Both the position numbers and the translations under genes were made by a program. Under the pieces are notes generated by a model. It was not told where the DNA came from. It did no database searches and was given only the letters and a program-made list of their open reading frames with translations. 42,330 nt of DNA from Candidatus Saccharimonadota bacterium (lineage in GTDB: Bacteria > Patescibacteriota > Saccharimonadia > Saccharimonadales > UBA10212), in contig JACPKG010000008.1 in NCBI GenBank assembly GCA_016187175.1, forward strand, positions 1-42,330. Direction: 5' to 3'. Each line of letters starts with the position of its first letter. Within the stretch, counting starts at the first letter, position 1. Positions 13,380 to 36,798 of the stretch are shown here, one piece after another.

Positions 13380-13910
13380 TTAGGTCTCCGTTTTTTCTTG
13401 TTGACGAGCCGCTAATACTTGCTTAACTTTAGCTTCCTCTTTGGCTTCTGCCTCGGCTTTTTTGGCTTCTTGCTCCTCGTGAACTTTTTCCTGCTCTTGC
13501 TTGATCTTGGTTTCTTCCTCGGCTGCGGCTTCATCAGCAGCAGTATTAATCGCTTCCCTATCAAAATCGACGCCGGCTAAGCGGGCGCTTTTACCTGTTA
13601 ATTCGCGCATGTAAGTTAAGTAGTTGCGGCGGACTTTGCTGCGTTTAACAACCTCGATTTTCAAAATGCTTGGCGAATGAATCAAGTAGGTCTTTTCTAC
13701 ACCTACGCCACTAGCGATACGGCGAACGCTAAGAGTGCTTGTCAGGCTACCGCGGCGAGTAACACGCAGTACCAGCCCCTCGAAAACCTGCACGCGTTCT
13801 TTACTGCCTTCGCGAACCTTTTGGTGTACCCGGACAGTGTCGCCGCTGCGTACGTCAACAACGGCTTTCTTCTTGAACCTGGCGCTAATTTGACTGGCAA
13901 CACTTTCCAT
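13380..13910 (-). CDS. rplS: Ribosomal protein L19 with C-terminal extension
   Basis: Large-subunit protein at the 30S-50S interface. The first ~115 residues are a normal L19 (VRVHQKVREGSKERVQVFEGLVL, VEVVKRSKVRRNYLTYMREL-type end). About 60 further residues form a highly charged Lys/Glu/Ala helix (EEETKIKQEQEKVHEEQEA) not present in typical L19. Start: ATG at 13910 is preferred over the GTG three bases upstream because it occupies the same position relative to the family A leader (TAACG.GATG) as the other copies. Preceded by a 35-codon uORF. Confidence 0.93.
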   Translation of the reverse strand: MESVASQISARFKKKAVVDVRSGDTVRVHQKVREGSKERVQVFEGLVLRVTRRGSLTSTLSVRRIASGVGVEKTYLIHSPSILKIEVVKRSKVRRNYLTYMRELTGKSARLAGVDFDREAINTAADEAAAEEETKIKQEQEKVHEEQEAKKAEAEAKEEAKVKQVLAARQQEKTET

Positions 13911-14018
13911 CACGTTAGAACCTCACTCTTAGCTGATAAAAACTTTTGATCGTTGGCAGTATAGCAAAACTTCCACGTTGAGTGAGCTGGAAAGTTGCAG
14001 GCTGAGGCCTAAGGTGAT
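13909..14018 (-). promoter_or_regulatory. Family A leader element of rplS
   Basis: Inverted repeat whose ends, read on minus, are ATCACCTTAGGCCTCA and TGAGGTTCTAACGTGAT; the AT of the rplS start codon is in the helix. An internal hairpin pairs GCAACTTTCC with GGAAGTTTTGC. The same layout precedes gatC. Confidence 0.6.
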
Positions 14019-14022
14019 CCAT
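13915..14022 (-). CDS. Leader uORF of rplS, 35 codons (family A)
   Basis: Reads from ATG 14022 to TAA 13915, ending CTAACGTG-ATG so the stop is 4 nt before the rplS ATG. The peptide begins MDHLRPQPATFQL, has QRG at residues 15-17 and PT at 23-24, and ends VRF. It shares 14 of 35 residues and exact length with the gatC uORF. Its promoter is 11 nt upstream. Whether the peptide matters, or only the act of translating it, cannot be told from sequence. Confidence 0.5.
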   Translation of the reverse strand: MDHLRPQPATFQLTQRGSFAILPTIKSFYQLRVRF

Positions 14023-14092: not shown

Positions 14093-15688
14093 TTAACCAA
14101 CCACTCTATATACCTCCTCGAGGGTTGTTAGGCCATCAAAGGTTTTGAGCAGACCGTCATGCAGCATTGTATGCATACCATCTTCAACAGCTTTGGCTTC
14201 TAGCCTTTCAGTAGTTATTTGGTTCGGCGGCAATCTCAGGATTTCCTGGACACCTGGTGTCATTAGCAATTGTTCGCGTAGCGCTATCTGACCGCTGTAG
14301 CCAAAAGGGTTTTGAGCTGAGCTACCAGCCTTATACAATGTCACCTCATTTAAATCCGGCCGTTTTAGCTCCGGCGGAAAGGTATCTACTACAACCTGCA
14401 GTTGTCTTTTCAGGGCATCATCAGGTTTGTAGGGTTGTTTGAGACTATCATCTAAGCGTCGGACTAACCGCTGGGCCATGACCAGCCGCATAGCGCTGGT
14501 GAATAAGGGATTGATACCGACTATGTCCAGCAGGCGGGTCAGGGCCGCAGCGGCGCTGCTGGCGTGAAAAGTGCTTAAAACAAGATGTCCGGTTAAAGCC
14601 CCTTGTAGGGCGGTTTTGGCGGTGTCTTGATCGCGAATTTCGCCTACCATCACCACGTCTGGATCTAGCCGCAGCACAGCCCGCAGCTTGTCCGCGAAAC
14701 TCTGTCCCTCCAGTTTGCCGACTACTGGGATTTGAGTCACGCCGGGCATGTTATACTCCACGGGGTCTTCCAAAGTTATAATTTTTCTTTCGGCCGTGTT
14801 GAGTGTATTAATTAAAGAGTAGAGAGTAGTGGTTTTACCCGAACCGGTAGGACCAACAACCAGTACCATACCGGTTGGATGTCTAATGATATCGTCGACA
14901 ACTTTAGCTTCTTTTTCACTTAAGCCCAGGTTTTGTAAATTGAACAGTTCAAGTCGCAAGTTAAAAAGGCGGGCCACAATGTCCATACCATAGATCGTTG
15001 GCACAGTTTCTACCCGAAGATTCAAAGTTACTTGCTCGCCGGTAGCCATTTTATAAGAACGGCTGATGTGGCCCGCCTGGGGTTCGGTGTTGTCGGTAGA
15101 AATGTTGGCCGCACTAGCTAATACCGATATAAGGTGTTTGTATTTTTCATAGCTCAAATAAGCTACCGGATGCAGTACACCATCCACCCTAAAACGCACT
15201 CGGACATTATCGCGCTGGCATTCCAGATGAATGTCGCTTGATTTAAGAGCGTAGGCTTGTTGAACTAAATAAGCCAGCATGTCATCAGGCCGCACCTTAT
15301 CTAAAGTAGCGCTAACTGACTCGATCATTTTGCTAGCTTCGGTGCCGCTGATGGCTATGTCCTGATACTCGACCTTTTTAGGCGGGTCATAAAGCTTCAT
15401 ATAGTCCGAAAAGCCAGACTCGGAAATAATAGAAAAGCTTAGGCGCTGATCAGTGAAGCGTTCGGTTAATTTCTTTATGACTTGTTGCGCGGTAGTTGTG
15501 GTTATTCCGAAATGAATGTGGTATTCATCAGATGTCAGGGGCACAACTCTCAGATTGTAGAGCTCCGGAACGCTTAGGATATTTTTAAACAGTCGTTTTT
15601 GCAGTTGAGTCGTGTCAACATAATTAAAACCTAGCACATCAGCTCGCCGCTTGGTGACTAGCTCTTCTTGTTTTCTGGCATCATTCAT
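14093..15688 (-). CDS. pilB: PilB/GspE-type secretion/pilus assembly ATPase
   Basis: Hexameric cytoplasmic ATPase that drives type IV pilus extension or type II-like secretion. The 531 aa contain the N-terminal MshEN-like half, Walker A GPTGSGKTTTLYSL near residue 273, the Asp box ITLEDPVE, the Walker B MVGEIRD and the His box TGHLVLSTFHAS. The usual zinc-binding CxxC pairs of PilB/GspE are missing from the C-terminal region (position of SSAQNPFGYSGQIALREQ). Adjacent rplS leader lies past its stop. It is preceded by a family A leader with a uORF that overlaps its ATG. No pilin genes are visible in the window. Confidence 0.93.
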   Translation of the reverse strand: MNDARKQEELVTKRRADVLGFNYVDTTQLQKRLFKNILSVPELYNLRVVPLTSDEYHIHFGITTTTAQQVIKKLTERFTDQRLSFSIISESGFSDYMKLYDPPKKVEYQDIAISGTEASKMIESVSATLDKVRPDDMLAYLVQQAYALKSSDIHLECQRDNVRVRFRVDGVLHPVAYLSYEKYKHLISVLASAANISTDNTEPQAGHISRSYKMATGEQVTLNLRVETVPTIYGMDIVARLFNLRLELFNLQNLGLSEKEAKVVDDIIRHPTGMVLVVGPTGSGKTTTLYSLINTLNTAERKIITLEDPVEYNMPGVTQIPVVGKLEGQSFADKLRAVLRLDPDVVMVGEIRDQDTAKTALQGALTGHLVLSTFHASSAAAALTRLLDIVGINPLFTSAMRLVMAQRLVRRLDDSLKQPYKPDDALKRQLQVVVDTFPPELKRPDLNEVTLYKAGSSAQNPFGYSGQIALREQLLMTPGVQEILRLPPNQITTERLEAKAVEDGMHTMLHDGLLKTFDGLTTLEEVYRVVG

Positions 15689-15767
15689 CCTGTTTAGAAG
15701 TCCAATTCACTGCCAGTAAATGGCAGATTTTATCTTTGATAAAATACTTACTTCTAACGGGATCCAT
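15681..15767 (-). CDS. Leader uORF of pilB, 28 codons (family A)
   Basis: ATG 15767 to TGA 15681. The peptide starts MDPVRSKYFIKDKIC. Its first 15 residues are nearly those of the uORF before the 21670 gene. A 4-nt loss in the second internal hairpin shifts the frame, so it passes the TAA used by its relative and instead stops 8 nt inside pilB (ATGAATGA). Predicted transcription start is at or next to this ATG. Confidence 0.45.
   Translation of the reverse strand: MDPVRSKYFIKDKICHLLAVNWTSKQDE
15687..15763 (-). promoter_or_regulatory. Family A leader element of pilB
   Basis: Arms on minus: ATCCCGTTAGAAGT and ACTTCTAAACAGGAT. Two inner hairpins, ATTTTAT/ATAAAAT and TGCCA/TGGCA, make a three-way junction. 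It is nearly identical to the element at 21896-21975. Confidence 0.6.
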
Positions 15768-21102: not shown

Positions 21103-21146
21103 CAAAAGCTAAAATTACTTGACTGATCAAGTAATTTTAGCTTTTG
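21103..21146 (-). terminator. Perfect 19-bp hairpin at the end of the YtxH gene
   Basis: CAAAAGCTAAAATTACTTG, 6-nt loop, then its exact complement. It covers the last two codons and the stop of the YtxH gene. The A/T-rich base gives some U's on both strands, so it could terminate in either direction. Confidence 0.5.
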
Positions 21147-21547
21147 AAATACTTAGCGAGGTTTTTCTTGGCCGCTTTGGCTTGTTTCAACGCTCTATTT
21201 AGTTGCGGGTCATCAGCGTTACCGGTCTTGATGGCCTTTAAAACATGAGAGGCTTTATTTTGAGCATCTTTGGCTCGTACAACCGCCTCGTTGAATTCGA
21301 CCCGCGCCTTGGAGCCTAAAGCTAGGGTTTTACTTTTAGCGGTTTTAATTAAATCATTCAACTCATCGTGAGCCCTTTGCAGTTGTTCCTCGGCGTTTTC
21401 CTTTAAAGCCTCGGCTTTATCAGCAATGTCCTCACGCGTTTCTTGGCCGCTTTTGGGCGCTGTCAACAGGCCTGTTATGTAGCCAACTGCACCGGCCAGC
21501 AGCGCCCCGATGGCTAATTTGCGACCCGTATGTTCATCTTTTGCCAT
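21137..21547 (-). CDS. YtxH-domain (Gram-positive-style) membrane-associated protein
   Basis: 136 aa. A basic start is followed by a hydrophobic Gly/Ala-rich helix (LAIGALLAGAVGYITGLL, about residues 10-28), then PKSGQETREDI, the YtxH hallmark, and a long Ala/Lys/Glu helix up to the C-terminus. Function of the family is poorly known; stress-response and envelope roles have been proposed. It is preceded by a family B leader with a strong GGAGGG sequence 8 nt before the ATG. The stop lies within a perfect hairpin. Confidence 0.8.
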   Translation of the reverse strand: MAKDEHTGRKLAIGALLAGAVGYITGLLTAPKSGQETREDIADKAEALKENAEEQLQRAHDELNDLIKTAKSKTLALGSKARVEFNEAVVRAKDAQNKASHVLKAIKTGNADDPQLNRALKQAKAAKKNLAKYFKS

Positions 21548-21548
21548 T

Positions 21549-21650
21549 TCACCCTCCTAAACTTTTCATTAAATTATGGTTAGTCTGCCTAAATAAGCTA
21601 GGCATATTATAGTTCAGGACGTCTTTTTCGTGTAAGTCGAGACATTTCAT
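21549..21650 (-). CDS. Leader uORF of the YtxH gene, 33 codons (family B)
   Basis: ATG 21650 to TGA 21549, with one base between the stop and the YtxH ATG. Begins MKCLDLHEKD and ends HNLMKSLGG. The GGAGGG that encodes the final GG also serves as the ribosome binding site of the main gene. It has the same length and 12 of 33 identical residues as the uORF before the sugar kinase (31583-31684). Confidence 0.5.
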   Translation of the reverse strand: MKCLDLHEKDVLNYNMPSLFRQTNHNLMKSLGG

Positions 21651-21670
21651 AATGAAAAGTTTCGGCGGGT
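21551..21670 (-). promoter_or_regulatory. Family B leader element of the YtxH gene
   Basis: On minus, ACCCGCCGAAACTTTTCATT pairs with a 3' arm containing AATGAAAAGTTTAGGAGGGT. The pairing buries the GGAGGG ribosome binding site. The element reaches the stop codon of the upstream 21670 gene. Confidence 0.6.
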
Positions 21671-21897
21671 CATTTATTTTTTCTCTTAATTGTGACTAGT
21701 TTGCTGATTAGGTTTATTACCGGCATGGCAGTGACACCTTTCCTGACAGCCGAAGCTGCCGATTCAACGCTTTCGGCCACATCGGCCGCCCGCTTGAACA
21801 CCCTTATCAGATAGATTAAGGCAACGCTGAAAATTATCAAAAAAACTGCCAAAACTGCGCTAACAATAATTAATAAAACTTCAGCTGCGGCGTCCAT
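21670..21897 (-). CDS. Small single-pass membrane protein, 75 aa
   Basis: Not recognised. MDAAAEVLL then a strongly hydrophobic helix (residues ~7-31), a helical AADVAESVESAASAVR stretch, and a basic tail KLVTIKRKNK, a layout reminiscent of DUF948-like proteins. I chose the ATG at 21897 rather than one at 22014 because the family A leader and a promoter with 17-bp spacing lie between them. Likely cotranscribed with the YtxH gene, whose family B leader abuts this stop codon. Confidence 0.6.
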   Translation of the reverse strand: MDAAAEVLLIIVSAVLAVFLIIFSVALIYLIRVFKRAADVAESVESAASAVRKGVTAMPVINLISKLVTIKRKNK

Positions 21898-21975
21898 CCC
21901 GTTAGAAGTCCAATTCACTGCCAATAGTGAATTGGCAGATTTTATAGTTGATAAAATACTTACTTCTAACGGGAT
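21896..21975 (-). promoter_or_regulatory. Family A leader element of the 75-aa membrane protein gene
   Basis: The arms on minus, ATCCCGTTAGAAGT and ACTTCTAACGGGAT, form a perfect 14-bp helix that includes the AT of the start codon. Inner hairpins are ATTTTAT/ATAAAAT and TGCCAA/TTGGCA. Compared with the pilB copy, one inner stem differs by a compensatory length change. Confidence 0.65.
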
Positions 21976-21979
21976 CCAT
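21902..21979 (-). CDS. Leader uORF of the 75-aa protein gene, 25 codons (family A)
   Basis: ATG 21979 to TAA 21902; the stop is 4 nt before the main ATG (TAACGGGATG). Starts MDPVRSKYFINYKIC. A promoter with 17-bp spacing predicts transcription starting exactly at its ATG. Confidence 0.5.
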   Translation of the reverse strand: MDPVRSKYFINYKICQFTIGSELDF

Positions 21980-25322: not shown

Positions 25323-25428
25323 TATCCGCCCCGCTAAACTGCCAGAGGTCCGACCTGGCAAAAAGAGAAGTAAAATCTGGTGATTTTGCATAAAATCTCT
25401 TGGCTTTTTGCCAGGTCGGACTTCCCAT
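25315..25428 (-). CDS. Possible leader uORF of gatA, 37 codons (family C region)
   Basis: ATG 25428, 5 nt after the gatC stop, to TAA 25315, which overlaps the gatA start by 8 nt. Starts MGSPTWQKAKRF. The frame covers the whole family C hairpin. The same frame is closed in the rpiB copy, so coding support is weaker than in families A and B. Confidence 0.3.
   Translation of the reverse strand: MGSPTWQKAKRFYAKSPDFTSLFARSDLWQFSGADNE
25348..25421. repeat. Family C hairpin repeat upstream of gatA
   Basis: GTCCGACCTGGCAAAAAG pairs with CTTTTTGCCAGGTCGGAC, with inner AAAATC/GATTTT. A near-identical copy with compensating base changes lies at 36689-36764. Confidence 0.8.
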
Positions 25429-25433
25429 AATAC

Positions 25434-25724
25434 CTAAAGGACTCTTTGGACTTTAAATTGATTTTTTTCGACTGCTGGAGCGTTTTTTAACAACTCTTTA
25501 GGTTTGGCTTGGTATTCGATCGGTTGATCGGCTCGCATAACATTTTTTAAGCCCGTTACCTGGTAGGTCGGCTCAAGACTTCTCGTATTAACTTTCTCCA
25601 ACTGCTCGACGTATGAAAGGATGTCTGAGAGTTCCTGCCTGAAACGTTCAATTTCTTCCTCTGTCAGTTTTAGGCGTGATAACTTCGCCAATTTAAGAAC
25701 TGCGTCACGGCTTAACTTACTCAT
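25434..25724 (-). CDS. gatC: Aspartyl/glutamyl-tRNA amidotransferase subunit C
   Basis: Small clamp subunit of GatCAB, 96 aa, starting MSKLSRDAVLKLAKLSRLKLTE and containing FRQELSDILSYVEQLEKVNT, both typical. Gene order is gatC-gatA-(small TM gene)-gatB on minus. The start ATG forms the end of a family A leader helix, and the leader carries a 35-codon uORF whose TAA is 4 nt upstream. The weak GAGG in the 3' arm would be masked unless the helix opens. Confidence 0.95.
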   Translation of the reverse strand: MSKLSRDAVLKLAKLSRLKLTEEEIERFRQELSDILSYVEQLEKVNTRSLEPTYQVTGLKNVMRADQPIEYQAKPKELLKNAPAVEKNQFKVQRVL

Positions 25725-25832
25725 CCCGTTAGAACCTCACCTCTGGCTCATGATTATCGTCCATCGTTGGAAATCCAAGGCAACCCCCACGTAAAACTAG
25801 CTTATAAGTTGCAAACTGAGGTCTAACGGGAC
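25723..25832 (-). promoter_or_regulatory. Family A leader element of gatC
   Basis: On minus, CCCGTTAGACCTCA pairs with TGAGGTTCTAACGGG (one bulged T), with the GAGG and start codon at the 3' end. An inner stem GCAAC/GTTGC and a TTGG/CCAA hairpin match the layout of the rplS leader. Confidence 0.65.
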
Positions 25833-25836
25833 TCAT
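25729..25836 (-). CDS. Leader uORF of gatC, 35 codons (family A)
   Basis: ATG 25836 to TAA 25729, 4 nt before the gatC ATG. Starts MSPVRPQFATYKLVLRGG and ends VRF. It has the same length as the rplS uORF with 14 identical residues spread over the whole peptide (RPQ, AT, L, RG, PT, VRF) and synonymous third-base changes at R5, L13 and G17. Confidence 0.55.
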   Translation of the reverse strand: MSPVRPQFATYKLVLRGGCLGFPTMDDNHEPEVRF

Positions 25837-26829: not shown

Positions 26830-28788
26830 TTAAAGTTTAGCTCTAATTTCCGCAATCAGGTCGCGCAGGTCGGCGGCTTTTTCAAATTCTAAATTAGCTG
26901 CCGCCAAGTCCATCTGAGCCGTTAGGTCGCGGATAAGGTGCTTATACTCATCCTTTGGTATCTTTCGCAGATCCAGTTTCGGTTTTTCTTGCTTGACTGT
27001 TCGTGGCAGCATTTCGCTAACTTCACGGCTGATACTTTTTGGTTTAATAGCATGCACTTTATTGTATTTATCTTGAATTTTGCGCCGACGATTGGTCTCA
27101 TCGATAGTGCGCTGCATACTGCCAGTGATAGTATCAGCGTACATCAGTACCCGACCTTCGACGTGACGGGCCGCCCGGCCAACTGTTTGGATTAAGGCCT
27201 GCTCGCTGCGCAAAAAACCTTCCTTATCAGCGTCTAAAATTACCACTAAGCTGACTTCCGGCAAATCAAGCCCTTCGCGCAGCAGGTTGATGCCGACCAG
27301 TACGTCATAAACTCCTAGACGTAAATCACGCAAGATATCGGTCCGTTCCAGTGTGTCAATTTCGCTGTGAATGTAAGCCACCTTGATATCAAGTTCCTGC
27401 AAATATTCCGCTAGGTCTTCTGCCATTCGCTTAGTCAGAGTGGTCACAAGCACACGCTGTCCCTTACCGACAGTCCAACGGATTTCAGCAATCAAATCAT
27501 CAATCTGGCCGGAGGTAGGCCGGACTTCAATGACAGGATCAAGCAGTCCGGTTGGCCGGATAACCTGCTGTACGGGTTCGGGGCTGCGAGATAGCTCATA
27601 CTTCGCTGGCGTAGCCGAAACATAAATAACCTGATTCATATGCCTCTCGAACTCTGTGAATGTCAGCGGTCGATTATCCAGGGCGCTAGGCAGGCGGAAG
27701 CCGTGTTCTACTAATACTTCCTTGCGCGCTCGGTCACCGTGGTACATGCCCAGCACCTGCGGAACGGTCATATGTGATTCGTCAATGAACATTAAATAGT
27801 CGTCTGGAAAATAATCCAGCAGTGTGGCTGGCTGTTCACCTTCTTCACGATCGGTCAGGTATCGACTGTAGTTTTCGATACCTTTGACAAAGCCGGTTTG
27901 CTCCAGCATTTCCAGATCAAAATTTAGGCGCTGTTCTAAGCGCTGGGCTTCCAGCAATTTGCCTTCTTTTTCAAACCAGGCCAGGCGATCATCGGCTTCT
28001 TCACGGATTTTAATCAGTGCCCGCTTCAGTTTTTCTTCCGGTGTCACGTAGTGGCTGCCTGGAAAAATACTTAACAAGTCAAGCTTTTTTTCTATCTCAC
28101 CGCTAAGGGGATCTATTTGAGTCAGGCGTTCCACTTCATCGCCAAAAAATTCAATGCGGTAGGCTACTTCTTCGCCGACCGGGAAAATATCTACCACGTC
28201 TCCCCTGACCCGGAAGGTACTGCGGTGAAAATCCATGTCGTTACGGCGGTACTGAATGTCTGTTAGACGGCGGAGCAGTTTGTCGCGCACCAAGCGTTCG
28301 CCAACTTTAAGCTTCAAAGTCATACCGGCATAGTCCTCCACCGAGCCGATGCCATAAATACAGGAAACGCTAGCCACTATAATCACGTCGCGTCGTGACA
28401 GCAGCGCCGCTGTGGCGGCGTGGCGGAGGCGTTCAATTTCCTCGTTGATATCACTGTCCTTCTCAATATAGGTGTCGGTACGCGGCATGTAGGCTTCCGG
28501 CTGGTAATAATCAAAGTAGCTGACAAAGTAGTGGACGGCACTGCTTGGAAAAAATTGCCGGAATTCGTTATAGAGCTGAGCGGCCAGGGTTTTATTGTGG
28601 CTGATGACTAACGTCGGCTTTTGGGTGTTGGCTATCACGTTGGCCATTGTAAAAGTTTTGCCACTGCCAGTAATCCCTAACAACGTCTGATGTTTCTTGC
28701 CCTTCTGCAGACCTTCGATTAATTGAGCAATCGCCGACGGCTGGTCGCCCGTCGGCTGATACTCCGAAGACAGCTTAAATGCAGCCAT
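26830..28788 (-). CDS. uvrB: Excinuclease ABC subunit B
   Basis: Damage-verifying helicase of nucleotide excision repair. The 652-aa protein has Walker [16 protein letters not shown], the beta-hairpin region [14 protein letters not shown], the helicase motifs DESHMT and QTVGRAARH, and the C-terminal UVR motif ([18 protein letters not shown]) that contacts UvrC. Length is normal. Two family A hairpins lie in tandem immediately before the ATG, with a GGAGG ribosome binding site locked in the nearer one. UvrA and UvrC are not in the window. Confidence 0.97.
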
Positions 28789-28917
28789 CCCGATTAGACC
28801 TCCGCTCCGCGGCAGATTTCTGTCGAAATCTTAGGTCTAACGGGATAGGCCCCGTTAGAAGTCTGATTCTTTACTGAATCAGAAATCTTCGCTAAAAAAT
28901 TACTTCTAATCGGGGCC
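28787..28917 (-). promoter_or_regulatory. Tandem family A leader elements of uvrB
   Basis: Distal element 28848-28917 has arms GGCCCCGATTAGAAGT and ACTTCTAACGGGGCC with inner TGATTC/GAATCA. Proximal element 28787-28846 has arms ATCCCGTTAGACCT and AGGTCTAATCGGGAT, with inner CCGC/GCGG and AGATTTC/GAAATCT. The proximal 3' arm contains GGAGG and the AT of the uvrB start codon, so closing the helix would hide both. Confidence 0.65.
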
Positions 28918-30570: not shown

Positions 30571-31581
30571 TTAGCGTATCCTTTCCGGATGGTACCAGCG
30601 CGGTGCGCTACGCAGGTACTGTTCGACTTGACGGACGCTTAGCAGCCCGGCTTGGGCGCCAACTTTTTGGACAACGCTCATGGCATTGATCGGCGCCCAA
30701 AGCAGCGCGCCCTGGATATCCGCGCCGCGCATGATTGCCGCTACAAAAGTTGCGCTAAAAGCGTCACCAGCGCCTGTTCGTTCGAACGGTGGTTTAGGGT
30801 CGGGATAAATCGGCATTTTGTAGCGGTTCACCCCGTCGCTGGCGTAGGCGCCGGCGTGTCCATCACTAATAACTACAATTTTTGGCCCTAAATCATGCAA
30901 TCGGTCTAGTAAATCATGGATGTCATGGCGATCCCCGCCAGAAATGACGGTTGCTTCCTCTCTATTCACGGCCAGTAGCTCACTCCGCTCATACAGTTTC
31001 CGTAGTCTTTTTACCCCAGCTTCGATCTGGAATGTGCCTGGTTGAAAGGCTAATTTAACCGGTGGGTGAGACTCCAGCCAGGCAACGATTTGGTCGTGAT
31101 ACTCCAGGGCGTGTTGAGAGACAGAGCTAAAATATATCCACTTTGGGATATCAATCACCCGGAAACTCGGCCAATGGTAGGCGTATTCTTCATGTTTTAT
31201 TAGGATCGTCCTGTCTTCTTTATACCAAAGAACGTAGTGGTAATTACTTTTTTTACCCGGATTAACATGTACAAAACGTGTGTCAACGTCTGCCTCGCGC
31301 AACGCCGTCATAATTTCGCGCCCCCACTCGTCACCTCCTACATTGGTAATCAGCCCTGAGTCAAACTCCAGTTTAGCGAAGGCCACGGAGGCATTACCAG
31401 CATTCCCGACCGCCGGAATTACTTCGGCGTGGTCAAAAGGCACTTTACTGGCAAAAGGCATGGACAGCCAAGGCGAATCGTTTTTGTCTTTAATAACTTT
31501 GACTTCATCCTTCAGCAGTTTAATAAAGACGTCTGTAACAACGTCGCCCACCGCTAGCACATCCAGTTGTTTTTGGCTCAT
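30571..31581 (-). CDS. PfkB-family carbohydrate kinase
   Basis: 336 aa. The ribokinase/PfkB pattern is clear: LAVGDVVTDVFIKL at the start, VIPAVGNAGNASVAFAKL (the substrate-side Gly motif), and PPFERTGAGDAFSATFVAAIMRG, which is the PfkB signature 2 with the catalytic Asp in GAGD. It transfers phosphate from ATP to a sugar or nucleoside; the substrate cannot be deduced. Start ATG 31581 is one base after the stop of a 33-codon uORF. It heads a probable operon with the 29521 and 28936 genes. Confidence 0.9.
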   Translation of the reverse strand: MSQKQLDVLAVGDVVTDVFIKLLKDEVKVIKDKNDSPWLSMPFASKVPFDHAEVIPAVGNAGNASVAFAKLEFDSGLITNVGGDEWGREIMTALREADVDTRFVHVNPGKKSNYHYVLWYKEDRTILIKHEEYAYHWPSFRVIDIPKWIYFSSVSQHALEYHDQIVAWLESHPPVKLAFQPGTFQIEAGVKRLRKLYERSELLAVNREEATVISGGDRHDIHDLLDRLHDLGPKIVVISDGHAGAYASDGVNRYKMPIYPDPKPPFERTGAGDAFSATFVAAIMRGADIQGALLWAPINAMSVVQKVGAQAGLLSVRQVEQYLRSAPRWYHPERIR

Positions 31582-31709
31582 TTCACCCGCCTAAACTCTT
31601 CATCATATTATGGAGCGTTCGATTCTTTTTCATTCGTCTTGATAGGAATATTGCGTTTTTCTCCTCACTGACGAAACATTGCATAATGAAAAGTTTCGGT
31701 GGGTGAAAT
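31580..31709 (-). promoter_or_regulatory. Family B leader element of the PfkB-kinase gene
   Basis: Minus arms ATTTCACCC and GGGTGAAAT are a perfect 9-bp closing helix that includes the AT of the start codon and the GGCGGG site. An AAACTTTTCATTAT/ATATGATGAAGAGTTT segment extends it. The predicted transcription start (~31713) is just outside, so the element makes up the entire 5' leader. Confidence 0.6.
31583..31684 (-). CDS. Leader uORF of the PfkB-kinase gene, 33 codons (family B)
   Basis: ATG 31684 to TGA 31583, one base before the kinase ATG. Starts MQCFVSEEKN and ends HNMMKSLGG. It shares length, both ends and 12 residues with the YtxH uORF. Confidence 0.5.
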   Translation of the reverse strand: MQCFVSEEKNAIFLSRRMKKNRTLHNMMKSLGG

Positions 31710-31719
31710 CCTTACGCCT

Positions 31720-31728
31720 ATTTTAACA
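31720..31728 (-). promoter_or_regulatory. Extended -10 promoter of the PfkB-kinase leader
   Basis: TGTTAAAAT on minus. It predicts transcription from about 31713, roughly 29 nt before the uORF ATG. Confidence 0.5.
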
Positions 31729-36136: not shown

Positions 36137-36628
36137 TCAGACCTCGTCAAGTTTGGCGTTGCGGCGGACGTGACGTTCTTCGCCGGAAAACGGCACTTCC
36201 AGCCAAAGCCTAACAGCGTTTTTTATATCATCCGTGCTTAAAAAACTGACCCCCAGGCTAAGCATGTTACTGTCATTATGAGCACGGCTCAGGCGGACAA
36301 TTGCGTAGGGGTCGTGGCTAGTTTTGTTGCTAGCGTCAATCACCCGCCTGGCAATAGCCAGGCCGTAAAAAACGCCGCAGCGCACCCCACGGAATCTGTT
36401 GGCCGCAATAGCTTCGCCTTCACCGCTACGGCCAAAAATTACACCTCTATCACATTCCCCATTGGCAACCGCTCTGGCCGCCGGAAAGACGTAATCGGGG
36501 TAGTCGTCGTCTGGTTTTAGCGACTGCGGCCCAAAATTCCGGCAATTATGGCCTAGTGACTCTAAATAACTTTGCAACTCTTTGAGCTGTTCGAAGCCGG
36601 CATGGTCAGTAGCTAGCGCAATATTCAC
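36137..36628 (-). CDS. rpiB: Ribose-5-phosphate isomerase B
   Basis: 163 aa. Begins MNIALATDHAGFEQLKELQ, with the family DHAG motif. The active-site region IFGRSGEGEAIAANRFRGVRC lacks the E. coli-type Cys (CGTG) and instead carries the Glu of the actinobacterial/Mycobacterium type. The start is GTG; GGAG is 9 nt upstream. The start overlaps the stop (GTGA) of a 57-codon frame that contains the family C repeat. Followed by rpe with a 1-nt gap. Confidence 0.92.
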   Translation of the reverse strand: MNIALATDHAGFEQLKELQSYLESLGHNCRNFGPQSLKPDDDYPDYVFPAARAVANGECDRGVIFGRSGEGEAIAANRFRGVRCGVFYGLAIARRVIDASNKTSHDPYAIVRLSRAHNDSNMLSLGVSFLSTDDIKNAVRLWLEVPFSGEERHVRRNAKLDEV

Positions 36629-36798
36629 AATGTGTCTCCGCCGCCATTAACCATTTTGCCCTTACCATTTACCCTACATCGTGATAAAGGTTCGACCTTG
36701 TAAAAAGATAGGTAAAATCTGGTGATTTTGCCTAAAATCTCTTGGCTTTTTACAAGGTCGGACCTGTCAAAAAGGTAAACTGTCAACGGATAACGCAT
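36625..36798 (-). CDS. Possible leader uORF of rpiB, 57 codons (family C region)
   Basis: ATG 36798 to TGA 36625, overlapping the rpiB GTG as GTGA. Contains SDLVKSQEILGKITRFYLSF; the matching frame of the gatA copy reads SDLAKSQEILCKITRFYFSF but has no start codon there. The gene before it is GAPDH. Confidence 0.3.
   Translation of the reverse strand: MRYPLTVYLFDRSDLVKSQEILGKITRFYLSFYKVEPLSRCRVNGKGKMVNGGGDTL
36689..36764. repeat. Family C hairpin repeat upstream of rpiB
   Basis: GGTTCGACCTTGTAAAAAG pairs with CTTTTTACAAGGTCGGACC. Relative to 25348-25421, TGGC/GCCA has changed to TTGT/ACAA on both arms, keeping the pairing. Confidence 0.8.

Follow-up and report, generated by a model that had tools for sequence, protein, structure and literature searches.

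The known sequences nearest to the elements that we describe here are the MITEs of prokaryotes and the Rickettsia palindromic elements. Prokaryotic MITEs are short and dispersed, carry terminal inverted repeats, contain no intact nuclease and have their ends in common with a longer coding copy; the review that covers them mentions neither start codons nor GIY-YIG (PMC10969869). Rickettsia palindromic elements are palindromes of ~100-150 bp that hold an open frame and are tolerated inside ORFs, in frame, because they can be translated (PMC10969869). Two further precedents come from T4, namely genes 38 and 25, in which a short RNA structure that forms between SD and AUG brings the two back to a workable distance, and the stand-alone homing endonuclease genes, which are free-standing nuclease genes with an RNA structure that hides the nuclease's own ribosome binding site (PMC3014915). 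Lastly, non-intron GIY-YIG insertion sequences have been described in the rRNA genes of CPR bacteria, outside group I/II introns and together with many short (<200 bp) uncharacterised inserts, Saccharibacteria being reported to lack rRNA insertions (PMC11270868). We found no paper that joins GIY-YIG with a seat at start codons or with uORFs of Saccharibacteria.

The window analysed here is a stretch of 42,330 nucleotides from a Candidatus Saccharimonadota bacterium, and it contains two elements of what we call family B (table 1). The first-pass annotation of this DNA had described them as two uORFs of equal length with shared ends and 12 identical residues, lying before ytxH and a sugar kinase gene. 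Both 33-codon frames are present, on the minus strand, and translate as MKCLDLHEKDVLNYNMPSLFRQTNHNLMKSLGG (ytxH) and MQCFVSEEKNAIFLSRRMKKNRTLHNMMKSLGG (kinase gene); their similarity holds, with 13 identical residues by our count in place of 12, and the two downstream genes had been named correctly. The junction before the main ATG is also as described, both elements ending in GGNGGGTGAAATG, i.e. GGNGGG-TGA-A-ATG. The 3' motif GTTTAGGNGGGTGAAATG has three matches in the window (with up to 3 mismatches) against 0.08 expected, two of them being the junctions and the third lying in the second element, whose 5' arm matches when read in reverse. In the predicted fold of each element, an end-to-end helix of ~20 bp encloses the SD of the main gene (-33.3 and -35.9 kcal/mol; z -4.1 and -4.2 against dinucleotide shuffles), in agreement with the suggestion that the final GG codons form this SD and are covered by a helix. 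Aligned with each other, the two elements match well at their ends and not in their middles. As in MITEs, both copies are short, have terminal inverted repeats and lack an intact nuclease or transposase. The leader ahead of the pfkB element abuts the pfkB ATG directly in relatives that are free of the element.

Table 1. Positions in the window of the family A and family B elements, their parts and their host genes.
Feature	Positions	Strand	Remark
Family B mini-element before ytxH	21545..21672	-	128 nt; takes in ytxH ATG at 21545-21547
5' arm of ytxH element	21650..21670	-	ACCCGCCGAAACTTTTCATTA
33-codon frame M..MKSLGG* of ytxH element	21549..21650	-	best read as relic of GIY-YIG frame
3' arm of ytxH element	21551..21571	-	TAATGAAAAGTTTAGGAGGGT; SD of ytxH inside
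ytxH (YtxH-like protein), host gene	21137..21547	-	PF12732
Family B mini-element before pfkB-type kinase gene	31578..31705	-	128 nt
5' arm of pfkB element	31684..31704	-	ACCCACCGAAACTTTTCATTA
33-codon frame M..MKSLGG* of pfkB element	31583..31684	-	
3' arm of pfkB element	31585..31605	-	TGATGAAGAGTTTAGGCGGGT; SD of pfkB inside
Host-derived leader ahead of pfkB element	31705..31724	-	promoter-like TTAAAAT + AAGGA
PfkB-family kinase, host gene	30571..31581	-	PF00294
Family A mini-element, start of the gene of a 114-aa ORF upstream of ytxH	21895..21979	-	likely start codon ATG 21895-21897
Family A mini-element (class 106), start of gatC	25722..25836	-	ATGAGT duplicated both sides

Several lines of evidence link family B to a GIY-YIG nuclease. 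A 289-nt version with the same ends (L042/L092 in G015:C56; 5' arm GTCCACCGAAATTTTTCATCATGCAATATG, 3' arm GATGAAAAATTTAGGCGGATAAAAATG) encodes such a nuclease (MQYVYVLRSKKD...YLRKALHSTMKNLGG, printed also as MQYVYVLRSKKDKQLYVGCTYDVKKRLYEHN...REKWLKTGWGRRYLRKALHSTMKNLGG), as does a second long copy with B-type arms (L090 in G004:C25), and PF01541 is matched at 1.2e-12 and 5.1e-15, respectively. The start (MKC/MQC) and the end (HN-MKSLGG stop) of the mini-frame correspond to the two ends of the nuclease gene in L092 and L090, and the GIY-YIG catalytic domain is missing from the 33 codons of each window copy. Furthermore, decayed copies retain the tail of the nuclease outside the arm (YLRKSIHKMMKNLGG in G008; MRKSVHNIVKNLGG* before a cupredoxin gene of the window's genome), and the GH1 copy of G008 has 40 of 50 nt of its 3' end in common with L092. 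Because longer copies with like ends encode nucleases that match the termini of the uORF, the window copies are best read as degenerate miniatures of a GIY-YIG element. We consider it probable that they are reduced copies of a mobile element whose full form would comprise one GIY-YIG gene between inverted arms of ~20 nt, seated between the host SD and the start codon, and the 33-codon uORF is best read as the remains of the nuclease frame, the middle of which would have been lost or have diverged beyond recognition. Since no homology to the nuclease is detectable in the interiors of the mini copies beyond their ends, it is from these ends that we infer an internal deletion. An intact B-type partner nuclease was not found in the window's genome.

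Pattern and model searches (149-393 genomes of the order) restrict family B to the window's own GTDB family. A scan of named genomes returned matches in Saccharibacteria and single exact ones in a Bacteroidetes MAG and in Thermodesulfobacterium; the hosts of the named family B records are Candidatus Saccharibacteria. The search of relatives that the first-pass annotation had called for did yield further copies before other genes. There are 13 full mini copies, all immediately ahead of the start codons of unrelated genes, the hosts being ytxH (two genomes), pfkB, hsp20, recA, an Fe/Mn sod, an SPFH gene, rpmI (L35), msrB, an MGMT-like gene and three GH1 genes (Pfam names). Weaker copies precede atl (G013) and oxidoreductase-like, radA-like, ndk-like and cobO-like genes, and copies reduced to the tail stand before the cupredoxin gene and a small basic ORF in the window's genome (G000), where a single-pattern or BLAST search returns the two window copies only and a degenerate pattern was needed for the tail-only ones. 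In one copy (L263) the element is inverted, and tandem copies are present in G006.

Empty sites in relatives place the insertion of family B between the host SD and the AUG. At pfkB (a slash marks the junction), the empty sites read ..GCCGTAAGGATT/ATGGCT in G001 and ..GTAAGAAGT/ATGAGT in G006, and the filled site of the window's genome reads ..GGCGTAAGGATT/TCACCC...GGGTGAA/ATGAGC; at recA, the empty site of G001 reads ..GGAGAATTT/ATG (printed also as ..GTAAGGAGAATTT/ATGGCT) and the filled site of G006 ..GGAGATTTT[ACCC..GGGT]GCAATG (printed also as ..TTGGAGATTTT[ACCC..GGGT]GCAATGGCT). No target-site duplication is evident when the filled and empty sites of pfkB and recA are compared. Even within a genus the presence of the element is patchy, as it occurs at pfkB in 1 and at ytxH in 2 of 16 genomes, and family B is dispersed and multi-copy with empty sites, as MITEs are. 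It differs from MITEs in that its partner is a GIY-YIG nuclease and not a known transposase, in that the seat is at start codons only, and in that no target duplication is evident. Upstream of recA in the window's own genome (L339, G000:C4), the place at which G006 has the element is taken by another nested hairpin, whose outer arms are B-like (ACCCGCCGAAAGT...ACTTTGGTGGGT).

The sequences suggest that a second and larger family, the family A of the first-pass annotation, is the same kind of element as family B. The motif TCTAACGGGATG occurs, as exact matches, 19 times in the window's genome, 29 times in G006, 15 times in G002 and 11 times in G013, against 0 for the reversed control pattern in all genomes of the GTDB family, and an arm search free of ATG returned 57 family A elements against 0 for its control. 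All but two of the 78 two-armed copies (76/78) stand at the start of an ORF, and in 61 of the 78 the host gene begins with the same 5 nt (ATGRR) as are found in the flank ahead of the 5' arm, compared with 22.6 (maximum 36) in shuffles. The gatC site, for example, is empty in G001 (..TTAGACAT/ATGAGTAAG) and filled in the window's genome (..TTAGATAT/ATGAGT-CCCGTTAGA...TCTAACGGG-ATGAGTAAG), and in G006 the same site holds a different length class of family A. Of the 73 copies with a start codon in this flank, 66 keep the frame open as far as the junction; in the other two frames, 3 and 0 do so. The open frame ends with TAA at -7 (45 copies), with a TGA that overlaps ATGA (17) or by fusion in frame (4); open frames to the junction are seen in reversed-orientation copies too. 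These counts argue for clear selection on translation as far as the junction in family A. Rickettsia palindromic elements resemble family A in their translatable palindrome; they differ in that the elements here lie before the start codon, where the frame ends, and family B keeps no frame. Four family A copies of 272-274 nt carry a GIY-YIG gene, which is intact in three, one of them in the window's genome (L174, G000:C13). The full-length nucleases of the A and B types are 53% identical over 73 residues, and UPF0213 proteins are the nearest solved structures. The first-pass annotation had suggested that the arrangement may have arisen more than once; the two families do differ in arms and target footprints, but both are linked to GIY-YIG, and they resemble two families within a single type of mobile element more than two independent inventions of a leader.

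Degenerate A copies occur elsewhere on the minus strand of the window, one of them class 106-like (13908-14020, CCTCAGCCTGCAACTT...GTGAGGTTCTAACGTGATG) at the start of ORF 13380-13913 and the other class 73-like (15685-15766, ATGGATCCCGTTAGAAG...CTTCTAAACAGGATGAAT) at the start of a T2SSE-type ATPase gene (14093-15688). At 28787-28912, also on the minus strand, two A-like palindromes in tandem stand right ahead of the start of ORF 26830-28788. Class 73 copies (L166, L176, L207, L219 and L238) have a three-way-junction fold with an internal hairpin, which varies on both sides between copies (CCGATTCGC/GCGAATCGG, CCAGTTCGC/GCGAACTGG). A third repeat, 85 nt long and with inverted arms of ~20 nt (GGTCCGACCTGGCAAAAAG), is found at 25346-25430 and 36688-36772 of the window, upstream of gatA and of ORF 36137-36628, respectively; the two are 86% identical and do not stand at a start codon.

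Across 18 family B copies, 321 of 342 arm cells are paired, whereas dealing the 3' arms among the copies, a control that ignores the relatedness of copies, gives 293.9 (sd 3.7, maximum 312) and reaches 321 in 0 of 10,000 trials; 32 arm cells show changes on both sides. The loop measures 78-79 nt in 11 of 15 mini copies although identity in the interior averages ~35%, a constancy for which a neutral relic would not account. Within the interior no folding signal was found (mean z 0.13), and RNAalifold gave no consensus pairs for family B besides the end helix. The flank ahead of the 5' arm is SD-like in 10 of the 18 copies, compared with 17% for control windows, and the remaining 8, the ytxH copy of the window included, have no clear SD there. 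Counting the flanks only, the gap between SD and AUG is 7-9 nt at pfkB, hsp20, recA, sod and SPFH (our reading of the sequences), and an SD-hairpin-AUG geometry fits 10 of the 18 copies as well as the recA and pfkB empty-site comparisons. Based on these comparisons, what is kept in family B is the terminal helix of ~20 bp and the seat immediately before the start codon.

An SD inside a covarying helix, with a loop of near-constant length, would also be expected of a cis-regulatory RNA, that is, a thermometer-like SD hairpin of a stress regulon that is kept for regulation. The hosts lean to stress genes (hsp20, recA, sod, msrB, ytxH, SPFH and methyltransferase-like), and the atl copies of G008 and G013 are still paired though both arms have changed. 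However, L35, pfkB, GH1, CobO-like and Ndk-like genes are hosts as well, the element is patchy at pfkB and ytxH even within a genus, longer forms encode a nuclease, and Rfam offers no match in the window. We therefore regard this explanation as unlikely, while some B copies could have taken on such a role after insertion (domestication). A lower probability still is given to the proposal that the arms belong to a palindromic (REP-like) repeat in its own right, some loops of which GIY-YIG genes entered later. Solo palindromes of ~45 nt that consist of B-type arms only do occur away from start codons (L279, L280 and L281, in G004, G003 and G011), and the long inverted arms of most GIY-YIG ORFs in these genomes vary from site to site; yet decayed mini copies hold C-terminal codons of the nuclease in register with the 3' arm, and the stop codon of the nuclease lies within the arms, which makes an independent origin of the arms improbable.

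The first-pass annotation read the two uORFs as a leader family. On the rival explanation of a conserved regulatory leader peptide, ribosomes that translate the 33-codon uORF would open the helix and, by coupling, initiate on the main gene. Both window copies do have an open frame, the junction frame is stop-free in 5 of 16 copies and the other two frames in 0/16 and 0/16, and translation to the junction is clearly selected in family A; but descent from a nuclease frame also fits the fewer stops, and the middle of the peptide is not conserved. In-frame stops interrupt 11 of the 16 copies, the recA copy has no junction stop, three copies have no ATG before KSLGG, and L263 is inverted. Given the frame breaks, the missing recA stop and the inverted copy, something other than the peptide is kept by selection in family B, and we reject a leader peptide there as very improbable. 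The GG codons are retained where the frames upstream are broken, which is the pattern that the first-pass annotation had itself named as counting against its proposal. A known RNA family was also rejected, as Rfam has no gathering-level match in the window and a permissive scan returned chance hits only.

Like the rRNA inserts of CPR bacteria, the elements that we attribute to a GIY-YIG nuclease are inserts with a small GIY-YIG ORF in CPR genomes; they differ in their seat at the start codons of protein genes, in their multi-copy miniature families and, in family A, in the duplication of the start codon. A GIY-YIG ORF with 17-nt inverted arms does lie inside the 5' domain of the 16S rRNA gene of a relative (L068, G002:C3:799-1005), contrary to the reported absence of rRNA insertions in Saccharibacteria (PMC11270868). 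Another, with perfect inverted arms, directly abuts the RNase P RNA gene of the window's genome or lies within it (L183, G000:C3:3900-5100). Further GIY-YIG ORFs (L066, L074, L083 and L087) have common CCCAGCAC arms and apparently form a third arm family.

With its arms paired, a family B insert would be looped out and the host SD would come to lie ~7-9 nt from the AUG; when they are open, the SD that the element brings (GGNGGG, just ahead of the AUG) may take over as a spare. The proposed loop-out is like the structures of T4 genes 38 and 25, but those are short and not mobile, and the putative loop here is ~120 nt. In T4-type homing endonuclease genes, too, a free-standing nuclease gene goes together with a structured ribosome binding site; there the hidden site is the nuclease's own, and here it would be the SD of the downstream host gene. 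Family A would instead capture the host start codon and return ribosomes at the host AUG. Given the shared ends, it is likely that a GIY-YIG enzyme moves the copies and catalysed their spread, and the start-codon seat may reflect targeting or the mere survival of harmless insertions. We tentatively propose, as a possibility that we rate somewhat below even, that GIY-YIG-driven mobile elements target translation starts: family A would duplicate ATGRR and remain harmless because it can be translated over its whole length, whichever way round it lies, up to a stop at the host AUG; family B would enter between SD and AUG and remain harmless because it folds out and brings a spare SD; and some copies would now switch the translation of stress genes.

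Insertions are not usually tolerated at start codons and ribosome binding sites. The elements described here would mean that selfish DNA can occupy the most sensitive spot of a gene while the gene stays readable, the two families having found two routes to tolerance, by being translated through (A) and by folding out (B). Apparent 'conserved upstream ORFs and SD hairpins' in reduced CPR genomes would thereby become a testable question about mobile elements, and calls of leader peptides or riboswitches in these genomes should be made with caution, as they may concern relics of such elements. Furthermore, the elements suggest a possible life cycle for the free-standing GIY-YIG genes that are abundant and unexplained in CPR.
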